From Devosia indica (GTDB taxonomy: Bacteria > Pseudomonadota > Alphaproteobacteria > Rhizobiales > Devosiaceae), in contig NZ_PYVZ01000003.1 of assembly GCF_003056405.1 (NCBI RefSeq), positions 62,001-126,000 of the forward strand: a DNA stretch of 64,000 nucleotides, given 5' to 3'. The translations under genes and the position numbers were made by a program. This document shows, in pieces, positions 53,038 to 60,419 of the stretch. How positions within the stretch are numbered: the stretch's first letter is position 1; each line of letters starts with the position of its first letter. The notes under the pieces are model-generated. The model was not told where the DNA came from and did not search any database. It was given only the letters and a program-made list of their open reading frames with translations.

Positions 53038-53697
53038 TCAGTCGCCAAGGATCTGATAGCCCAGTCCGCGCACGGTCTGGATACAATCCTCCGGCAGCTT
53101 CTTGCGCAAACGCCCGACGAACACCTCGATCGTGTTGCTGTCGCGGTCGAAATCCTGATCGTACAGGTGCTCGGTCAGCTCGGTCCGCGAAATCACCTTG
53201 CCCTTGTGGTGCATGAGATAGCTCAAAAGCCGCAATTCGTGGCTCGTCAGCTTCACCGATTGACCTTCGACGGTCACCTTGCCGCTGCGCGCGTCGAGGC
53301 GCACGGCGCCGCAGACGATCTCGTTGCTCGCATGTCCAGCGGCCCGCCGCACCAGCGCCCGCACACGCGCCAGCACCTCTTCCATGTGGAATGGCTTGGC
53401 GACATAGTCGTCTGCACCCGCATCGATACCCTGAACCTTGTCGCTCCAGCGGTCGCGGGCAGTCAGCAGCAATACCGGTGTGGTCTTACCCGCCCGTCGC
53501 CATTCCTCAAGCACCGAAAGCCCGTCCATTTGCGGCAGGCCGATATCGAGGATGATCGTGTCATAGGGCTCGGTATCGCCCAAAAAGTGGCCTTCCTCGC
53601 CATCGAAAGCCACATCCACGGCGTAGCCCGCCTCGGTCAAGGCGTCCTTGATCTGTCGATTGAGATTGGTGTCGTCTTCAACAACCAGAATACGCAT
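53038..53697 (-). CDS. feuP: FeuP-type OmpR-family response regulator
   Basis: A 219-residue regulator. Receiver domain with VVEDD, phosphoacceptor aspartate in IILDIGLPQMDGLSVLEEW near 52 and lysine in VAKPFHMEEVLARVRAL near 102; winged-helix domain with LTSHELRLLSYLMHH, SRTELTEHLYDQDF and TIEVFVGRLRKKL. Strings such as FDGEEGHFLGDTEPYD are characteristic of FeuP in rhizobia. Upstream is the small secreted protein gene at 53724, a possible feuN. Confidence 0.88.
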   Translation of the reverse strand: MRILVVEDDTNLNRQIKDALTEAGYAVDVAFDGEEGHFLGDTEPYDTIILDIGLPQMDGLSVLEEWRRAGKTTPVLLLTARDRWSDKVQGIDAGADDYVAKPFHMEEVLARVRALVRRAAGHASNEIVCGAVRLDARSGKVTVEGQSVKLTSHELRLLSYLMHHKGKVISRTELTEHLYDQDFDRDSNTIEVFVGRLRKKLPEDCIQTVRGLGYQILGD

Positions 53698-54099: not shown

Positions 54100-54285
54100 T
54101 CAGGCTTTCCCGATATCCCCCTTCAACCCCTTGCGCAGGAAGAGTATGGCCAGCGATTCTAGCACCAGGCTCCCTGCCGAACCGCTGTCCAGCGCTGGCA
54201 GGTCGATGCCAAGCATCTGCGCCAGCCCGGCAAGCAGCATGAATGCAGCCACGATATAGGTTTTGTAGCCAGATAGAATATCCAC
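54100..54285 (-). CDS. Holin-like small membrane protein (internal start within the endolysin frame)
   Basis: A GTG at 54285 lies eight bases after AAGGAG (54294-54299), a far better ribosome site than expected by chance inside a coding frame. It would give a 61-residue protein with two hydrophobic helices, VAAFMLLAGLAQMLGIDLPA and SLVLESLAILFL, like the small membrane proteins that accompany endolysins in GTA and phage lysis modules. It shares frame and stop with the endolysin gene, so it may be made separately, as the C-terminal part of the fusion, or both. Confidence 0.5.
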   Translation of the reverse strand: MDILSGYKTYIVAAFMLLAGLAQMLGIDLPALDSGSAGSLVLESLAILFLRKGLKGDIGKA

Positions 54286-54840
54286 GTTCTCATCTCCTTG
54301 AGTTGAATTTTTGGTCGGCGCCGCGGCGAGCGCTGCGGCACGAATGGTCTCGACACGGCGGATCCAGCCGCGCCCGAACACCGGAAAAGTTGAGAGAGCC
54401 CTGAGAAAGCCGAGCCGCCGGTCGCACAGGGTATTTACTGTGCCGGCGGCGCTGCTTCGGTTGGCTGCCGCAAGTGTGATTGGGCCGACCAGGCCATCGG
54501 CGGCGACGCCGAGCACCTGCTGCAGGCATCGAACTGCCCTATTCGGCCCGGAATTGACCGCAAAGTCGAACACAGCCAGGTCCACACCCGGTGGCAGTTC
54601 TCCTGCCCGGCACACATCCCAATAGCCCGCCCGATAGATGTGCGCGGCCTCGTCCCTCTCCAGAGTCTGCACCTCAGCTTTTGGCAGATCCCACCAAGGC
54701 GAAATATTGCGCCAGCGCGCCAGGGTCTTGCGTGTGATCCCCATGTTCGTGGCGCCGCCCGGATCGGCAGGGTGATCGACATATCCCCCCTCATGCCGAA
54801 AAATTTCGGTCAGGCAGCCGTCAAACCGACCATCAGCCAT
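54100..54840 (-). CDS. GH108-type endolysin fused in frame to a holin-like tail
   Basis: The ATG at 54840 has AGGAG seven bases upstream and overlaps the stop of the GTA fusion gene by 8 bases. Residues ~1-175 form a peptidoglycan-hydrolase domain: IFRHEGGYVDHPADPGGATNMG holds the catalytic glutamate of glycoside hydrolase family 108, and DGLVGPITLAAAN resembles a peptidoglycan-binding-3 repeat. From residue ~186 the frame passes straight into SGYKTYIVAAFMLLAGLAQML and a second hydrophobic helix, normally a separate small phage-type membrane protein. The signal for a separate start (AAGGAG then GTG, 54285) is still there, so a lost endolysin stop codon is suggested. Confidence 0.8.
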   Translation of the reverse strand: MADGRFDGCLTEIFRHEGGYVDHPADPGGATNMGITRKTLARWRNISPWWDLPKAEVQTLERDEAAHIYRAGYWDVCRAGELPPGVDLAVFDFAVNSGPNRAVRCLQQVLGVAADGLVGPITLAAANRSSAAGTVNTLCDRRLGFLRALSTFPVFGRGWIRRVETIRAAALAAAPTKNSTQGDENVDILSGYKTYIVAAFMLLAGLAQMLGIDLPALDSGSAGSLVLESLAILFLRKGLKGDIGKA

Positions 54841-55348
54841 GAAACTCTCCTGTCGCGCCATGGCCCGCACCGAGCGCTGCGCTGACTTGCCGGACACTAA
54901 AAGTGAAACCGCTCGCCGGAGCACCGAGGTCGGCGATCTGGTCGGCCAGCGGATACGGAACGGAGCATTGCGCTGTACTCAGCGTTCTTACTGTCACGCC
55001 GCCGGTCACGATCTCGACCTGCCAGTTCTCCGGCGCGAATTCGAGCGGTGGCTCGGCCACACCCCAGCCATCACCATCGGCCCGGCTGCGGCGCGTCCAT
55101 TCCAGCGTGATTGATCCATCGGCTGCCCTCAGCCCTTCCAGATGGACGGGCGAGAGTGGCAAAGCCGGCCCCGCGCCAGGCGCGACAGTCATGATCTCTC
55201 CGGCGCCACCGCCCATACGCCCGCGCTTTTTGGCGAGGCTCTTGGCAAAGGCTCCGGGCAGCACGATATCGCCGCCGCTATCGAGCCGGTTGAAGACGCT
55301 GGCATAGCCGGCAAAGCGCCCGTCCCCATCAATCGGAATGCCGCTCAT
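54833..55348 (-). pseudogene. GTA prohead protease (gp4) N-terminus fused to host-specificity protein (gp15) C-terminus
   Basis: The open frame of 171 residues joins two unrelated pieces. Residues 1-~45 (RFAGYASVFNRLDSGGDIV, PGAFAKSLAK) are the start of an HK97-type prohead protease; the catalytic part is missing. From about residue 52 on (VAPGAGPALPLSPVHLEG, LEWTRRSRADGDGW, then a short beta-rich end) it is the C-terminus of the large GTA tail/host-specificity protein gp15. Everything that normally lies between (rest of protease, capsid, adaptors, tail tube, tape measure, baseplate, peptidase, most of gp15) is absent. The junction is at about 55190-55230. The frame survived, but no function is expected. 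Starts within the stop of the 43-residue gene before it. Confidence 0.85.
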
Positions 55349-55476
55349 CCGCGCTTGGCCCCGCCGGTCTTGGGTCTCGGACCACTACGCTGCTTGTCAG
55401 CCAGCGTTCCTGCCAGGTTCCAGGCAAATTGCCGGAACGTCTGCTGCGCCGCTTCACGATTCTGCTTGTCTGCCAT
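55345..55476 (-). CDS. Very small basic protein in the GTA remnant
   Basis: A 43-residue frame from an ATG at 55476: MADKQNREAAQQTFRQFAWN, then a basic tail ending GGAKRG. Its stop codon overlaps the start of the gp4::gp15 fusion gene (ATGA), and it begins four bases after the preceding small gene, so coding is likely by arrangement. I know no family for it; it sits where GTA clusters carry short genes before the prohead protease. Confidence 0.55.
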   Translation of the reverse strand: MADKQNREAAQQTFRQFAWNLAGTLADKQRSGPRPKTGGAKRG

Positions 55477-55480
55477 GGGT

Positions 55481-55669
55481 TTAGTCCTCCTTCCGGAAAA
55501 GCCGATTCAACTGCGCAATCTCCTGCACGAAGTCGTTGAAGTGTTGATTCACCCGCGCCATCTCCCGCAGCGCCCACACGAGCAAGGCACTCGCCCCGCT
55601 CGCCCAGAGGAACAGCGCCAGATGGGCCAGATCGCCCCGCTCGATAACGGTCTTGGTCAACTCGTCCAT
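55481..55669 (-). CDS. Small membrane protein at the GTA gene 3.5 position
   Basis: A 62-residue protein from the ATG at 55669 with GGAG nearby. It has one transmembrane segment (LALFLWASGASALLVWAL, residues ~17-34) and a C-terminal amphipathic helix with asparagines and phenylalanines. In GTA clusters a short membrane protein often lies between portal and prohead protease; size and position agree. It follows an intrinsic terminator (55687-55711) that ends the preceding cassette, so it needs its own promoter or read-through. Confidence 0.65.
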   Translation of the reverse strand: MDELTKTVIERGDLAHLALFLWASGASALLVWALREMARVNQHFNDFVQEIAQLNRLFRKED

Positions 55670-55686
55670 GGGGTCCTCCAGGCAAC

Positions 55687-55752: not shown

Positions 55753-56406
55753 TCAGGGCCAACTTTCCCGCAATTTCACTAGGCTGGCCGCTGCAGCATC
55801 GGCTCGCTCAAGCACATGGGGCGGTCGGTTTCTCAAACCCGCGATCATCCTTAGGAAGCGTGAAACTTCGCGCTCGGTAGCGCGAGTGTCCAACAATGCC
55901 AGCAAATCCGAGACATAGTCATCGTACTCGAACACTGACGAGGGATTCTCCGGCGCATTAAAAGGATCCCACTCCAGTGTCAGAATGCTTCCGACAGCGC
56001 GAAGTTTTTGACCTCGCTTTACCAGCGCCTCCGTTCCAGGAAGCAACCGCTCTTCGAAAAACCGAGCATGCGTAAGGATCAATTGAATTTCGTCCTCGGT
56101 TAACCGGCTGTCTGGGTATTCAGGCTTTGAGCCCATCCTTCGATCCAACTCGATCGCAACCTGATACTGCTCAGGCGGCAGATCGGCAGTCGAGACAATG
56201 GTGCATGGCTGGTCGTCTTCTATCCTACGGCCTTGCCCATCCCGATTGAACTTGTAGGTTGTCTCATTGGGAATGTTGCGGGCCCAAATGCTGGACGCAT
56301 TCGTATAGTAGACTAACAGTAAGTCCGTCCGACCATCGTCTCTGATGCCGAATATCAGGTCGCCAGTTTTGATTGCGGCGAGGGCTTGGGCTCCAGAGGC
56401 AATCAT
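55753..56406 (-). CDS. Hypothetical protein, second of two tandem paralogues in the GTA cassette
   Basis: A 217-residue protein of unknown function. Residues 1-125 are clearly related to the gene just upstream: both share the pattern GD(L/V)IFGI, L-L-L-V-Y, IVSTA-LP near residue 70 and KPEYPD near 94. After that it has an extra C-terminal helical part (~130-217) with SVFEYDDYVSDLLALL. The start overlaps the upstream stop (ATGA). Base composition of 55.75-57.0 kb is visibly more A/T-rich than the flanks, suggesting later acquisition. It could be an immunity protein, but nothing in the sequence proves it. Confidence 0.7.
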   Translation of the reverse strand: MIASGAQALAAIKTGDLIFGIRDDGRTDLLLVYYTNASSIWARNIPNETTYKFNRDGQGRRIEDDQPCTIVSTADLPPEQYQVAIELDRRMGSKPEYPDSRLTEDEIQLILTHARFFEERLLPGTEALVKRGQKLRAVGSILTLEWDPFNAPENPSSVFEYDDYVSDLLALLDTRATEREVSRFLRMIAGLRNRPPHVLERADAAAASLVKLRESWP

Positions 56407-56777
56407 GCAACTGGCAGCGGCCGTGCCTCAAAGAAGGCCCGATGTGAAGTCATCAGCTTGATTTCTGCCTGGCTCAGTATCGTGTCCGGATATTCAGGCT
56501 TTGTTGCCCATTTTCGATCCAAGCCGAGTGCTGTCTCATACATGTCGGAAGGCAACCGTGCCGTTGATACGATCACACAAGAGCCCCCGCCCGCAACCCA
56601 AGTACTCTTGCCATCGCGACCAAATTTGGCCGTCGTTTGCGAGGTCACATGGCGGGCCGAAAAACCGCGACTATCGGCCTCATAGACCAACAGCAGTTTT
56701 GGTTGACCACCTTCAGCGATCCCGAAGATCACATCGCCAACTTCGATCGAGCTGAGTGCCTTCGCTCTTGACAACAT
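56403..56777 (-). CDS. Hypothetical protein, first of two tandem paralogues in the GTA cassette
   Basis: A 124-residue protein of unknown function. The ATG at 56777 (MLSRAKALSSIEVGDVIFGI) is chosen because it aligns with the start of the paralogue downstream; the frame is open to 56858. Shared motifs are VGDVIFGI, KLLLVYEADSRGF, CVIVSTARLPSDMYE, KWATKPEYPDTILS. The 5' end overlaps the upstream gene by 65 bases in another frame and its stop overlaps the next start by 4, typical of a compact cassette. A duplication of one gene by tandem copying explains the pair. Confidence 0.65.
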   Translation of the reverse strand: MLSRAKALSSIEVGDVIFGIAEGGQPKLLLVYEADSRGFSARHVTSQTTAKFGRDGKSTWVAGGGSCVIVSTARLPSDMYETALGLDRKWATKPEYPDTILSQAEIKLMTSHRAFFEARPLPVA

Positions 56778-57192
56778 TGGTACCCTTCTTGCGCCAGACT
56801 GAATCAAATCCGCCAAAAGTCTCAGATATTTCCTCAAAAGGAAGACCCTGCAGTCCAAGGTACTTCACCGCGCAATCCATGCAGAGGCGCTTGCCAGATA
56901 TGTGAACCGGATCAGTTGTACCAAAACTACCGCCATTTTGGCACCCACCGGAGAACCCGTCGCAACGCGGCCCGGCCACCTGGACGCGCTCCGGCTCGAC
57001 CTGAACCTGCCCGATGACCGACAGATCATCAATCCACTGCCCGCCCTCCGGCGTCCCCTTCGGCGCACGTGGCTGGTCCGGCCGATAGCGCCGCTCCAGC
57101 CCGGCAATCATCACATCCAGCTTTAGCGAGAGCGTGGCCAGCCGGATTTCGTATCCAAGCGCCTTCAGCGCTCGCCCAACAATCCGTGACAC
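56713..57192 (-). CDS. Toxin-like protein with PKGTPEGGQW motif after the portal gene
   Basis: A 159-residue protein with a GTG start at 57192, behind GGAGG and directly after the portal stop, so it is translationally linked to the portal. Residues 1-40 are helical (GRALKALGYEIRLATLSLKL); then comes RPDQPRAPKGTPEGGQW, a linker widespread in Hyphomicrobiales phage-type and polymorphic-toxin proteins that separates a delivery part from a variable tip. The tip holds four cysteines (RCDGFSGGCQNGG, then LCMDCAVKYLG), possibly zinc-binding. The end runs 65 bases into the next gene. A toxin with the two paralogues as immunity proteins is a hypothesis. Confidence 0.6.
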   Translation of the reverse strand: MSRIVGRALKALGYEIRLATLSLKLDVMIAGLERRYRPDQPRAPKGTPEGGQWIDDLSVIGQVQVEPERVQVAGPRCDGFSGGCQNGGSFGTTDPVHISGKRLCMDCAVKYLGLQGLPFEEISETFGGFDSVWRKKGTNVVKSEGTQLDRSWRCDLRDR

Positions 57193-57195
57193 TAC

Positions 57196-58362
57196 TTACG
57201 CCTCCACACCCACCCCGGTCAGCTCCCGCTTTTCGGCATCACTCAAAAACCCCGCCGCCCCGACCCGCGCCCACAGCGCCGCGCGGTCTTCGGCTAGCGC
57301 CTCGACGCTCTCGAAATCGGGCACCACCTGAGCGCCTTCAAACGCCGGCCCCAGCCATTCGCTCAGTTCCTGGGCGACCCGCACCACCAGCGGCACGAGC
57401 GTCTGGCGCCACAGCGCCTTGTTGGCTTCGGCCAGGTTCGCATAGGTATTGTCGCCCGGTATCCCGAGCAGCATGGGCGGCACGCCGAAGGCCAGCGCAA
57501 TATCCCGCGCCGCGGCGTGCCGGGCCTCGATGAAATCCATGTCGCGTGGGCTCAGGGCGATGGTTTTCCAGTCGAGCCCGCCATCGAGCACCATGGGCCG
57601 CCCGGCATTGGCTGCCCCCGCAAAATGGGTCTCCATTTCTTCCTTGAGCCGGTTGAACTGCTCTTCGGTAAGGCTTCCCGCCCCCGCCGAATAGACCAGC
57701 GCGCCGCTCGGCCGCGCCGCATTGTCGAGCAGCGCCTTGTTCCACTGGGCCGAGGCATTGTGAATATCGAGGCTGGTCTGCGCCGCCTCCAGCGGCCCCA
57801 TGCCATAGTGGTCATCGAGCGGATGGAACAACGCCATATGCAGCACGCCCGGCACCGGAACACTGTCCTGCGCAATCCGCGTCGCCCTGCCTCCAGCCTT
57901 GTAGTCATAGGCCACTGGCCAGCCATCGCGCCCGGCGACGACACTCATTCGGTCGGGGCGCAACACGAACAGCGTCCGTACCACACCATCGACGATCCCG
58001 GCCTGCAGATAGGCGTTCCCGGCCGTCTGCAGATAGGCATAAACCGCCTCAAGCATTTCCGCGCCCGATTGCCGCCCATTGGGCCTTGTGAGCAGCCCCA
58101 AAAGCGGATGCTCACTCACCGCCTGACCGTCGACCTTGACCGTCAGCGGCACCCGGTTGGCCGCTTCGGCAATCAGCCGGACGCAGCGATAGACCACCGG
58201 ATTGCGCATGAAGCCCTGGTTGACCAGGCTCGCATAACCCCGCCCGCTCCACTGCGCCGGTCCCAGCTGGCTCAGCGTCATCATGGTGTGCCCGGCAAAG
58301 GACTTGGCTTCATTGGGCGCATTCGTCCGGCCGCCGAACAGGCGGTTCAGCAGGTTTGGCAT
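57196..58362 (-). CDS. GTA/HK97-type portal protein
   Basis: A 388-residue portal protein that would form the ring through which DNA enters the head. GFMRNPVVYRCVRLIAEAA near residue 50, LHMALFHPLDDHYGMGPLE near 175 and PPMLLGIPGDNTYANLAEA near 300 are the familiar blocks of the gene transfer agent portal (gp3). Full length and apparently intact. It is separated from the terminase gene by a ~358-bp repeat-filled gap, where most GTA clusters have none or little, and is followed by the toxin-like gene with 3 bases between. Confidence 0.93.
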   Translation of the reverse strand: MPNLLNRLFGGRTNAPNEAKSFAGHTMMTLSQLGPAQWSGRGYASLVNQGFMRNPVVYRCVRLIAEAANRVPLTVKVDGQAVSEHPLLGLLTRPNGRQSGAEMLEAVYAYLQTAGNAYLQAGIVDGVVRTLFVLRPDRMSVVAGRDGWPVAYDYKAGGRATRIAQDSVPVPGVLHMALFHPLDDHYGMGPLEAAQTSLDIHNASAQWNKALLDNAARPSGALVYSAGAGSLTEEQFNRLKEEMETHFAGAANAGRPMVLDGGLDWKTIALSPRDMDFIEARHAAARDIALAFGVPPMLLGIPGDNTYANLAEANKALWRQTLVPLVVRVAQELSEWLGPAFEGAQVVPDFESVEALAEDRAALWARVGAAGFLSDAEKRELTGVGVEA

Positions 58363-58618
58363 ATTTAGTTCCTTTGAATTCGACCCCGACAGGAAGTCAC
58401 CCCACCCTCAATACGTCCCCATCAAGAGGAGGGAGGCGCAGGATGCGGCGCCTGTGTTCATCGTCTGCCTCCCCCCTGTGGGGAGGGATCAAGGGTGGAG
58501 TGCTGGCGCTGCGGTGGCCACCGGCAATGCAGCAAACTCGATAGGTCCCTCCCCCTACTTCAGGGGGAGATTAGGTGGGGGTAGACCTTGTTGCCCCGCC
58601 ATTCGAGCCTTGTTCGCT

Positions 58619-58720: not shown

Positions 58721-59971
58721 CTACAAGCCCCTCACCCGCGGCCTCGTCTCATTGAGCACCAGTTCCGTCATCGCCCAGACCAGCGCGTCCACCCGATCCG
58801 GCGAATGGCCCTCGGCCTTGCCATCTGGCCCAAAGGCACAAAGCTCGTCCTCCAGCGCCGTCAGCCCCGCCACATGGCGCACCAGCCCCCGCGCATAGAG
58901 TGCCGCCACCGGCTCGGCACGCACCCATTTGCCGCGGTTGGCACGCACCTTGCGAATGGGCACCGACCGATCGACCTGTTTGAGCATCTCCTCGACGAGG
59001 TCGCCGCCCTGGTTGACCTCAACCACGATGCAATCGGCCTCATGCGCCCGATAAGCCGCCACTGCCCGCGCTGCCCAGATATCGGGGCGCATGCCCTGCA
59101 GTGTTGCATCTTCGAGCACCACGGCCCCCTCGCCCGCTCGTCCAGCCACCACAATGCCGCAGGCGTCCGAGCGCTCGGTGCCCGTCACCGGCGGATCGAC
59201 CGCCACGACAATCCGGCCATCCACCACGCCGTCAGGCGCCCGGAACATCGACCGCTGCCAGAGCGCGTCAGGCCGATCCTCGATCAGCTCGCCATCCAGT
59301 TCCTGCCGTCCAAGAACCGAGTCACGATAGCGCTCGACCACAGCCCTGAAGAAGGCATCGGCCAAATGCTTGTTTACCTTGGACTTTGCACGGCTGATCA
59401 CGGACTGATCGTCCGCCATCAGGCGTTTCATCAGCTTGGTGGCGCGCGGCGTCGTCGTTACCAATTGCCGTGGCCGCTCGCCTAGCCGCAGGCCGAATTG
59501 CAGCATGTCGAAAGCGGCTTCGGCCTTGCGCCATTTGGCCGTCTCATCGCACCAGGCAGCAGCAAATTGCGGCCCGCGAAACCGCTCCGGGTCGGATGCC
59601 GGCAGCAGATGGGCTTCCACGCCATTGGGCCAGATCAGCACACTGCCGGTCAGCCTTGGTGCCATCCAGGGCGGCGATATCCGCAGAATGCCGCTTTCTC
59701 CCTTGACCATCACCATCTCGGCTTCAGTCATGGTCTCACCCACCAGAGCAATCGGGCCGATGCCCTTCTCGGCCAGCATTCTCACCCATTCTGCCCCGGC
59801 CCTCGTCTTGCCGGCGCCGCGTCCCCCCAGCAACAGCCACGTTGTCCAGTCACCGTCAGGCGGCAATTGATGCGGCATTGCCCAGACTGACCAGTTGAAC
59901 ATCAAGCGGCTGACTTCGTCTTCCGGCAGCAATGCCTCTTCGCGCAGCAGGCTCGCGCGCAGTGTCGACAT
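58721..59971 (-). CDS. GTA large terminase subunit
   Basis: A 416-residue packaging ATPase/nuclease (gp2 type). Walker A is LLLGGRGAGKTRAGAEW near residue 50, the Walker B-like region FAAAWCDETAKW near 140, and the RNase H-type nuclease starts at RIVVAVDPPVTGTERSDACG near 255, with further acidic residues in VVEVNQGGDLVEEM and SPDRVDALVWAMTEL. All catalytic regions are present, so the protein may be functional even though the cluster has lost its capsid. It follows the small terminase gene by 4 bp. Confidence 0.94.
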   Translation of the reverse strand: MSTLRASLLREEALLPEDEVSRLMFNWSVWAMPHQLPPDGDWTTWLLLGGRGAGKTRAGAEWVRMLAEKGIGPIALVGETMTEAEMVMVKGESGILRISPPWMAPRLTGSVLIWPNGVEAHLLPASDPERFRGPQFAAAWCDETAKWRKAEAAFDMLQFGLRLGERPRQLVTTTPRATKLMKRLMADDQSVISRAKSKVNKHLADAFFRAVVERYRDSVLGRQELDGELIEDRPDALWQRSMFRAPDGVVDGRIVVAVDPPVTGTERSDACGIVVAGRAGEGAVVLEDATLQGMRPDIWAARAVAAYRAHEADCIVVEVNQGGDLVEEMLKQVDRSVPIRKVRANRGKWVRAEPVAALYARGLVRHVAGLTALEDELCAFGPDGKAEGHSPDRVDALVWAMTELVLNETRPRVRGL

Positions 59972-59975
59972 CGTG

Positions 59976-60419
59976 TCAGGTCAGCCCCTTTGTGATGGCG
60001 TTGATGCGCGCCTCGAGTTTGCGGCGCATTTCGGAGGCCTCACCTGGGTCAGTGATTGTCCCCTCGGTATGTCCTTCTGCTCGTTCCATGGTGATGAGTT
60101 TGTCCAGATCGCGGACCAGGTCATTGAGCACCTTGCTGTCCACCCGTGTGCCCTTGTCCATATCTTCCTCCACCAGATCCATCTGCCGTTCCAACAGCCC
60201 CAGCAACCGCGCAATCAGCAATTGGCGGTCGAGCGCCCGCTTGCTCCCGGGGCGCACCCATTTGTGCGTCCGGGCGCGCACATCCAGTTGCCCCCGCCGC
60301 AAGCGGTAGCGGTGGGCAATGCCATTGCGGGTCAAGCGGCCCAACTCATAGTCGCGCCGCACTTCTTCCCACGGTACCGCCAAGCCATCGCGGTCCCGCT
60401 CAGGGTCAAGTTCATCCAT
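59976..60419 (-). CDS. GTA small terminase-like protein (gp1)
   Basis: A 147-residue protein. The N-terminal part WEEVRRDYELGRLTRNGIAH with RYRLRRGQLDVRARTHKW forms a helix-turn-helix DNA-binding region; the rest is a coiled helical part (RQLLIARLLGLLERQMDLVE and following) suited to oligomer formation. Placement directly before the large terminase and the length agree with the small terminase gp1 of gene transfer agents. First gene of the cluster. Confidence 0.75.
   Translation of the reverse strand: MDELDPERDRDGLAVPWEEVRRDYELGRLTRNGIAHRYRLRRGQLDVRARTHKWVRPGSKRALDRQLLIARLLGLLERQMDLVEEDMDKGTRVDSKVLNDLVRDLDKLITMERAEGHTEGTITDPGEASEMRRKLEARINAITKGLT

Follow-up and report, generated by a model that had tools for sequence, protein, structure and literature searches.

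A 10,188-bp internal deletion fuses prohead protease to gp15 in a Devosia gene transfer agent cluster, a locus lost repeatedly in the genus

The head-tail cluster of RcGTA, the gene transfer agent (GTA) of Rhodobacter capsulatus, runs from the small and large terminase genes (TerS, TerL) through portal, g3.5, protease and capsid to gp15. Cryptic prophages with internal deletions keep their ends and lose the middle. How GTAs persist when a non-producing cell escapes lysis is an open question. Loss and pseudogenization of GTAs in several lineages, together with the 'cheater' reading of such losses, are already in print in the sections of Kogay and Zhaxybayeva (2024; PMC10883770) used here. Homology-facilitated illegitimate recombination, which combines homologous exchange at one end with illegitimate joining at the other, is described in the consulted part of PMC3240628.

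We analysed a 64,000-nt stretch of Devosia DNA (the window) that carries a GTA cluster. Intact Devosia clusters follow the RcGTA gene order, and Devosia gp15 matches the GTA chain 6tba_8A and the megatron model; unlike RcGTA, the window lacks everything from the capsid gene to most of gp15, and its GH108 lysin overlaps gp15. The damaged Devosia cluster resembles a cryptic prophage in keeping its ends and losing its middle, but the locus is orthologous across the genus, so that events can be counted. Related Devosia appear to have lost particle production recurrently, as have the 'cheater' lineages of PMC10883770; Devosia adds junctions and fusions, whereas the sections of that article used here give none and its text does not mention the genus. 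Foreign-looking DNA beside two Devosia junctions, those of the window and of genome G030, is suggestive of the process in the consulted part of PMC3240628, but D. marina and G015 have no such tract. A term search of the available text of PMC6821227 and PMC9836097 gave no hit for Devosia, and literature searches, judged by titles and the beginnings of abstracts, returned no paper describing such fusions. The deletion in the window is a fresh example of a known phenomenon, GTA loss; neither a tally of losses at a single locus nor an exactly repeated TerL-gp15 junction turned up in these searches. With many losses at one orthologous locus, some of them with near-identical intact relatives, the rate, mechanism and fate of GTA loss become measurable.

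The features of the window's cluster are collected in Table 1. Orthologues of terminase, portal, protease and gp15 stood in conserved order, which identifies the locus as an RcGTA-like cluster. The same response regulator lay beside the cluster in most Devosia loci that reached that far, and on the basis of this shared neighbour the cluster is inherited vertically at one chromosomal place. Large terminase, portal and lysin all appeared full length, in agreement with the preliminary description, which had taken terminase and portal on one side and the endolysin on the other to be intact. A spacer repeat between TerL and portal (58396-58498) was related to another spacer of the cluster and to repeats dispersed in the genome.

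Table 1. Features of the GTA locus in the window (positions are those of the window)
Feature	Position	Strand	Evidence
Putative GTA small terminase (TerS)	59976..60419	-	PHROG 1206, weak (E 0.0019); place in cluster
GTA large terminase (TerL), full length	58721..59971	-	Pfam Terminase_6N and Terminase_6C; 96% coverage of the G005 protein
GTA portal protein, full length	57196..58362	-	Pfam PF04860 (E 1.5e-87); 93% identity to G005
Variable three-gene insert between portal and g3.5 (159-, 151- and 217-aa ORFs)	55753..57192	-	ORFs; comparison among Devosia clusters
g3.5-like small gene, 63 aa (presumed label)	55481..55672	-	100% identity to G005 over 62 aa
48-aa ORF that overlaps the start of the protease gene; present in most intact clusters	55329..55475	-	Cluster comparison
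Prohead protease remnant, codons 1-44 and two bases of codon 45	55215..55348	-	Profile matches; alignment to intact relative
Deletion junction; 10,188 bp here in UViG_3300026980_000023	55214..55215		Alignment to relative
107 nt adjoining the junction, 28 mismatches to near-identical intact relative	55108..55214	-	Alignment
gp15 (megatron) C-terminus remnant, stop at 54833-54835	54833..55214	-	Profile matches; alignment to intact relative
GH108 endolysin; ATG at 54840 overlaps gp15 stop	54100..54864	-	Pfam PF05838, PF09374
Response regulator gene, cluster-flanking position marker across the genus	53038..53697	-	Locus comparison

The 171-aa ORF at 54833-55348 (minus strand) was open throughout and joined prohead protease codons 1-45 in frame to the last ~125 codons of gp15. 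Profile searches, a check that the preliminary description had suggested, gave two families for its two parts: residues 7-42 matched prohead protease profiles (PHROG 80, PHROG 3244, TIGR01543 and, weakly, Peptidase_S78), and residues 54-167 matched PHROG 4271 and the GTA megatron profile NF048004 at profile positions 1185-1305, the far C-terminus. The Pfam and NCBIfam matches on the protease side scored below the curated cut-offs because only the N-terminus of the protease remains. No single profile in these searches spanned all 171 residues. The fusion is therefore confirmed as real, and the earlier assignment of the first ~45 residues to the protease and the last ~120 to gp15 holds, with unrelated sets of profiles covering the two parts. 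About ten genes had been said to separate the two in known clusters; in D. subaequoris (G005) the halves are separated by ~10 kb and eleven genes, whose names we take, by order, to be those of RcGTA.

Comparison with the cluster of a close relative, another check proposed beforehand, located the break. The IMG/VR sequence UViG_3300026980_000023 is a near-identical intact relative that carries portal, protease, capsid, tail genes and gp15. At this locus, to which the identities refer, the window matched it at 98.8% over 3,209 bp and 96.9% over 3,262 bp, ending exactly at 55215, and on the other flank at 97.0% over 1,118 bp, starting exactly at 55214. The missing segment extends from protease codon 45 to about gp15 codon 1119. 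With a near-identical intact allele and clean breakpoints both in hand, the locus has lost its GTA by internal deletion, as the preliminary description had proposed from the in-frame fusion. A search of the rest of the genome for capsid and tail genes had likewise been suggested: no HK97 capsid (PF05065) was found in the window's assembly by profile search, and no coding part of the missing segment turned up elsewhere in it. When 9,737 bp of the segment were searched as DNA, all 38 matches were short repeats of 27-134 bp and fell in three spacers of the segment. The set of capsid, tail tube and baseplate genes that marks a functional GTA was incomplete in this genome; judging from gene content, the deletion very probably abolishes particle production.

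The sequence adjoining the break was asymmetric. On the left there were no mismatches to the intact relative across 125 nt, while on the right 28 of 107 nt differed, followed by 1 of 265 at positions 110-375 (Fisher p = 9e-16). The closest sequences compared were only 74.5-77% identical to the 107-nt tract. In this region the intact relative was 81% identical to D. marina and the window 76%, indicating that it is the window that carries the odd sequence. The tract looks foreign. It might be what remains of donor DNA that recombined homologously at one end and was joined illegitimately at the other; alternatively, the deletion may have trimmed the left end of an older mosaic. Three other deleted genomes were compared with near relatives that carry the genes. 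D. marina and its intact relative UViG_2757320511_000003 were, up to the junction, 98.5% (2,276 bp) and 98.6% (2,641 bp) identical, with 12,771 bp lost and no foreign tract in the alignment. G015 matched G080 at 99.7% over 4,374 bp, at 99.3% over 292 bp and then at 95.6% over 406 bp, with 4,047 bp lost and again no foreign tract beside the break. In G030, the TerL N-terminal segment beside the junction was only 72% identical to the near relative over 347 bp, whereas upstream (214 bp) and downstream (2,899 bp) the outer flanks matched at 98.1% and 96.4%, respectively.

The preliminary description had called the deletion a rare snapshot of GTA decay, a view that the genus does not bear out. Our collection held 75 genomes of the genus, and loci were read for 72 (all except G016, G089 and G096). 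A cluster counted as intact when each of 14 core pieces reached 75% coverage, and the rest were read by hand. All 14 pieces were found in 41 of the 72 genomes; in 21 there was an internal deletion or no cluster was found (G000, which is the window's genome, G001, G006, G010, G014, G015, G026, G029, G030, G034, G061, G063, G068, G069, G070, G076, G078, G079, G083, G094 and G095). One was pseudogenized (G097, with a cluster full of stops and frame changes), one was ambiguous (G065, with the cluster spread over three contigs), and eight were cut by contig or locus ends (G013, G022, G035, G064, G081, G086, G087 and G088). On an rpoB-rpoC tree of 60 genomes, which includes a few partial sequences (e.g. 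G014, G034, G061 and G081), the window's genome was sister to D. marina with a support of 1.000. The D. marina deletion is different from and not nested with that of the window, and the sisters G006 and G095 also differ in their deletions; these are therefore separate events. Three side observations concern these loci. G097 (L076) is a 2.0-Mb genome. In G065 (L064 9980-10910), 940 nt upstream of gp15 contain no recognizable g14, and the cluster may also be rearranged. The deletions in G001 and G079 (L021, L070) and in the window differ, yet leave nearly the same last ~124 codons of gp15.

One exact TerL-gp15 junction, type A, occurred in seven genomes: G010 (D. marina), G026, G030, G061, G063, G076 and G083. 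In each, TerL ...AWCDE is followed directly, at an identical codon, by gp15 [IL]G.GAVDKG. Type B, found in G014 and G094, joins the same TerL codon to gp15 near codon 83. WCDE in TerL, presumably the Walker B motif, is thus joined in frame to a WLTE site of gp15 in type A and to a WARE site in type B, and the nine genomes have lost about two thirds of TerL. Type A appeared in five places on the rpoB-rpoC tree (G026 and G061 adjacent, with a support of 0.49); G083, without rpoB in the tree set, was unplaced there, but in the trees of gp15 and lysin it grouped with G020 and G077, both intact. The two type B genomes occupied two places on the species tree. Type A genomes mostly resembled their local relatives, and not each other, on either side of the junction, and their TerL and gp15 fell in different parts of the trees, the tree of the TerL N-terminus being blurred by exchange between species. 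Around the junction, their similarity did not significantly exceed that of random sets of genomes (lowest p 0.067). Outside the genus, we searched 397 evenly sampled genomes of the order with a 58-aa junction query; at least 287 matched in part or whole (12 Devosia and 275 others). Among the matches listed, ranked by E-value, the full-length ones numbered three, all Devosia (3/12 versus 0/275, Fisher p = 6e-5), and in that list the type A junction was not seen outside Devosia. One exact pattern of it searched in IMG/VR gave no match, and gp15 searches there from G063 and G026 found no near-identical relative.

Several origins for these junctions were considered. Microhomology does not suffice: among 36 intact clusters, an exact in-frame repeat of at least 5 nt was present at the type A pair of sites in 4, was lacking at the type B pair in all, and occurred at other in-frame pairs in up to 35, so that the sites used share no more exact repeat than others. 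In the near relative of D. marina, 7 of 8 nt were identical at the type A pair. A misplaced crossover during exchange of a TerS-TerL block was rejected as well: six close pairs had breaks between +60 and +78 codons past WCDE, most other breaks lay far upstream or later, and the few breaks fitted near WCDE brought low likelihood gains (lnLR 0.9 to 6.9). What the sites have in common is W-x-x-E, or TGG-N6-GAR in DNA, a pattern noticed after the junctions had been read and hence no independent test. Both gp15 partner sites were WxxE in most relatives, through which alone the gp15 side of a deleted genome's own site is known; W was absent at the type A gp15 site in G008, G009 and some others. Across the 36 intact clusters, WxxE occurred on average 1.17 times in TerL, which usually has a single such site, and 2.33 times in gp15, which has two or three, and CTGG-N6-GAR, in any frame, 0.81 and 2.08 times. 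Repetition of the exact junction is a convergence without an explanation so far; it may reflect a specific recombination process or selection for the fusion. As a tentative reading, rather less probable than its negation, the Devosia GTA may be repeatedly excised by a sequence-guided event, either through a recombination activity on TGG-N6-GAR-like sequence or through selection of an ATPase-gp15 fusion, which could act, for example, as an interfering (dominant-negative) packaging protein. If so, GTA loss would be programmed or adaptive rather than decay. Separately, Devosia species seem to exchange TerS and about the first half of TerL as one block (e.g. L026, L057, L028 and L090).

The preliminary description had also made much of the preserved reading frame. 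The fusion is indeed in frame, the lost length being 3 x 3396 bp, and so were 17 of the 21 gene-to-gene junctions scored: those of the window, the seven type A and two type B genomes, G029 (capsid to gp15), G095 (protease to gp15), G015 (protease to gp11), G069 (gp6 to gp15), G006 (capsid to lysin, with a stop in the capsid as well), G068 (TerL to portal) and G078 (TerS to gp15, where the TerS part is short, E 1e-5 by blastp-short). Four were out of frame (two in G001, the small ORF to lysin in G068, and protease to lysin in G034); G079, G070 and the far end of the loss in G015 were left unscored. The correct null is not one third. In 36 intact clusters, exact repeats between TerL and gp15 were in frame in 43% (4 nt), 51% (6 nt), 62% (8 nt) and 71% (10 nt) of cases. 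Against these values, 17 of 21 gave p = 0.0004, 0.005, 0.05 and 0.24, respectively, and with repeated junctions counted once (10 of 14 in frame) p = 0.03, 0.11, 0.33 and 0.63. The kept frame is therefore less telling than had been supposed: because short repeats are themselves often in frame, through codon periodicity, the bias does not prove selection and is weak evidence for it, not none.

Pairwise dN/dS between the window and the intact G005 was 0.056 for portal, 0.119 for lysin and 0.157 for the gp15 C-terminus, compared with 0.076-0.193, 0.10-0.18 and 0.12-0.40 between intact pairs; one partner in every window pair is intact. Sequences used for dN/dS, trees and junction alignments excluded tblastn matches with internal stops or below the coverage limits. 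Values as low as those of intact pairs fit a recent event, and they suit recent loss and continued use alike. The lysin at the cluster was full or nearly full length in 17 of the 21 deleted genomes; in the type A genome G061, a MAG, it was split over two frames (L061 647-1398, minus strand), and in G015 it was lost. The suggestion that such remnants show which parts are kept longest does not follow by itself, since an internal deletion keeps both ends anyway.

We are highly confident that the window holds an ordinary RcGTA-like head-tail cluster of a Devosia, recently disabled by this one internal deletion. Illegitimate recombination probably produced the break, and incoming related DNA may have taken part, given the foreign look of the adjoining tract. 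The cell would make no particle and so be a GTA non-producer, a loss that may be tolerated or favoured as in the 'cheater' idea, and the fused ORF would have no function of its own. An assembler that skipped 10 kb of an intact cluster might have produced the same picture, the more readily in a draft genome of 69 contigs with short dispersed repeats in the cluster spacers. Such an error is very improbable: the junction lies inside a 314-kb contig, the coding parts of the missing segment are on no other contig, the 107 nt beside the junction match nothing compared above 77%, and similar deletions occur in the single-contig genomes G015, G026, G076 and G079. Still closer to negligible is a reduced satellite-like element whose terminase packages its DNA into the particles of a helper. 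The large terminase and portal do look intact, but the deletion alone accounts for the genes that remain, and only about a third of TerL survives in the type A and B genomes.

It is unlikely that the fused ORF and lysin are kept by selection, the in-frame fusion carrying ribosomes to the gp15 stop so that lysin is made for a cell-wall role. The overlap of that stop with the lysin ATG, the excess of in-frame junctions over the 43% expected of 4-nt repeats, the many full lysins and a low dN/dS that could mean remnants still in use would suit this. Against it, the frame excess fades when junctions are counted once and longer repeats set the expectation, recent events likewise give low dN/dS, internal deletions spare the ends in any case, and G015 has no lysin at its cluster. 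A deleted allele that arose once and then spread between species by recombination is decidedly unlikely, even with an exact junction common to seven genomes, seen only in this genus among the matches listed, and a diverged TerL segment between matching outer flanks in G030. The window's own junction was in no other genome read, both flanks of D. marina match its intact relative up to the junction, and the type A genomes have TerL and gp15 that fall in different parts of the trees and show no significant excess similarity near the junction. One transferred allele was accordingly rejected as the source of type A, with G030 remaining a candidate.

A last observation concerns the insert between portal and g3.5, which was found in only some Devosia GTA clusters and was doubled, with pieces of g3.5, in G022 (L042). 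Its first ORF has RYRPDQPRAPKGTPEGGQW and a variable end, and is followed by two mutually similar ORFs. Pfam, PHROG and NCBIfam-type profile searches gave no convincing family match for the three genes; from the layout, we would guess at a variable toxin/immunity-like cassette within the GTA cluster.
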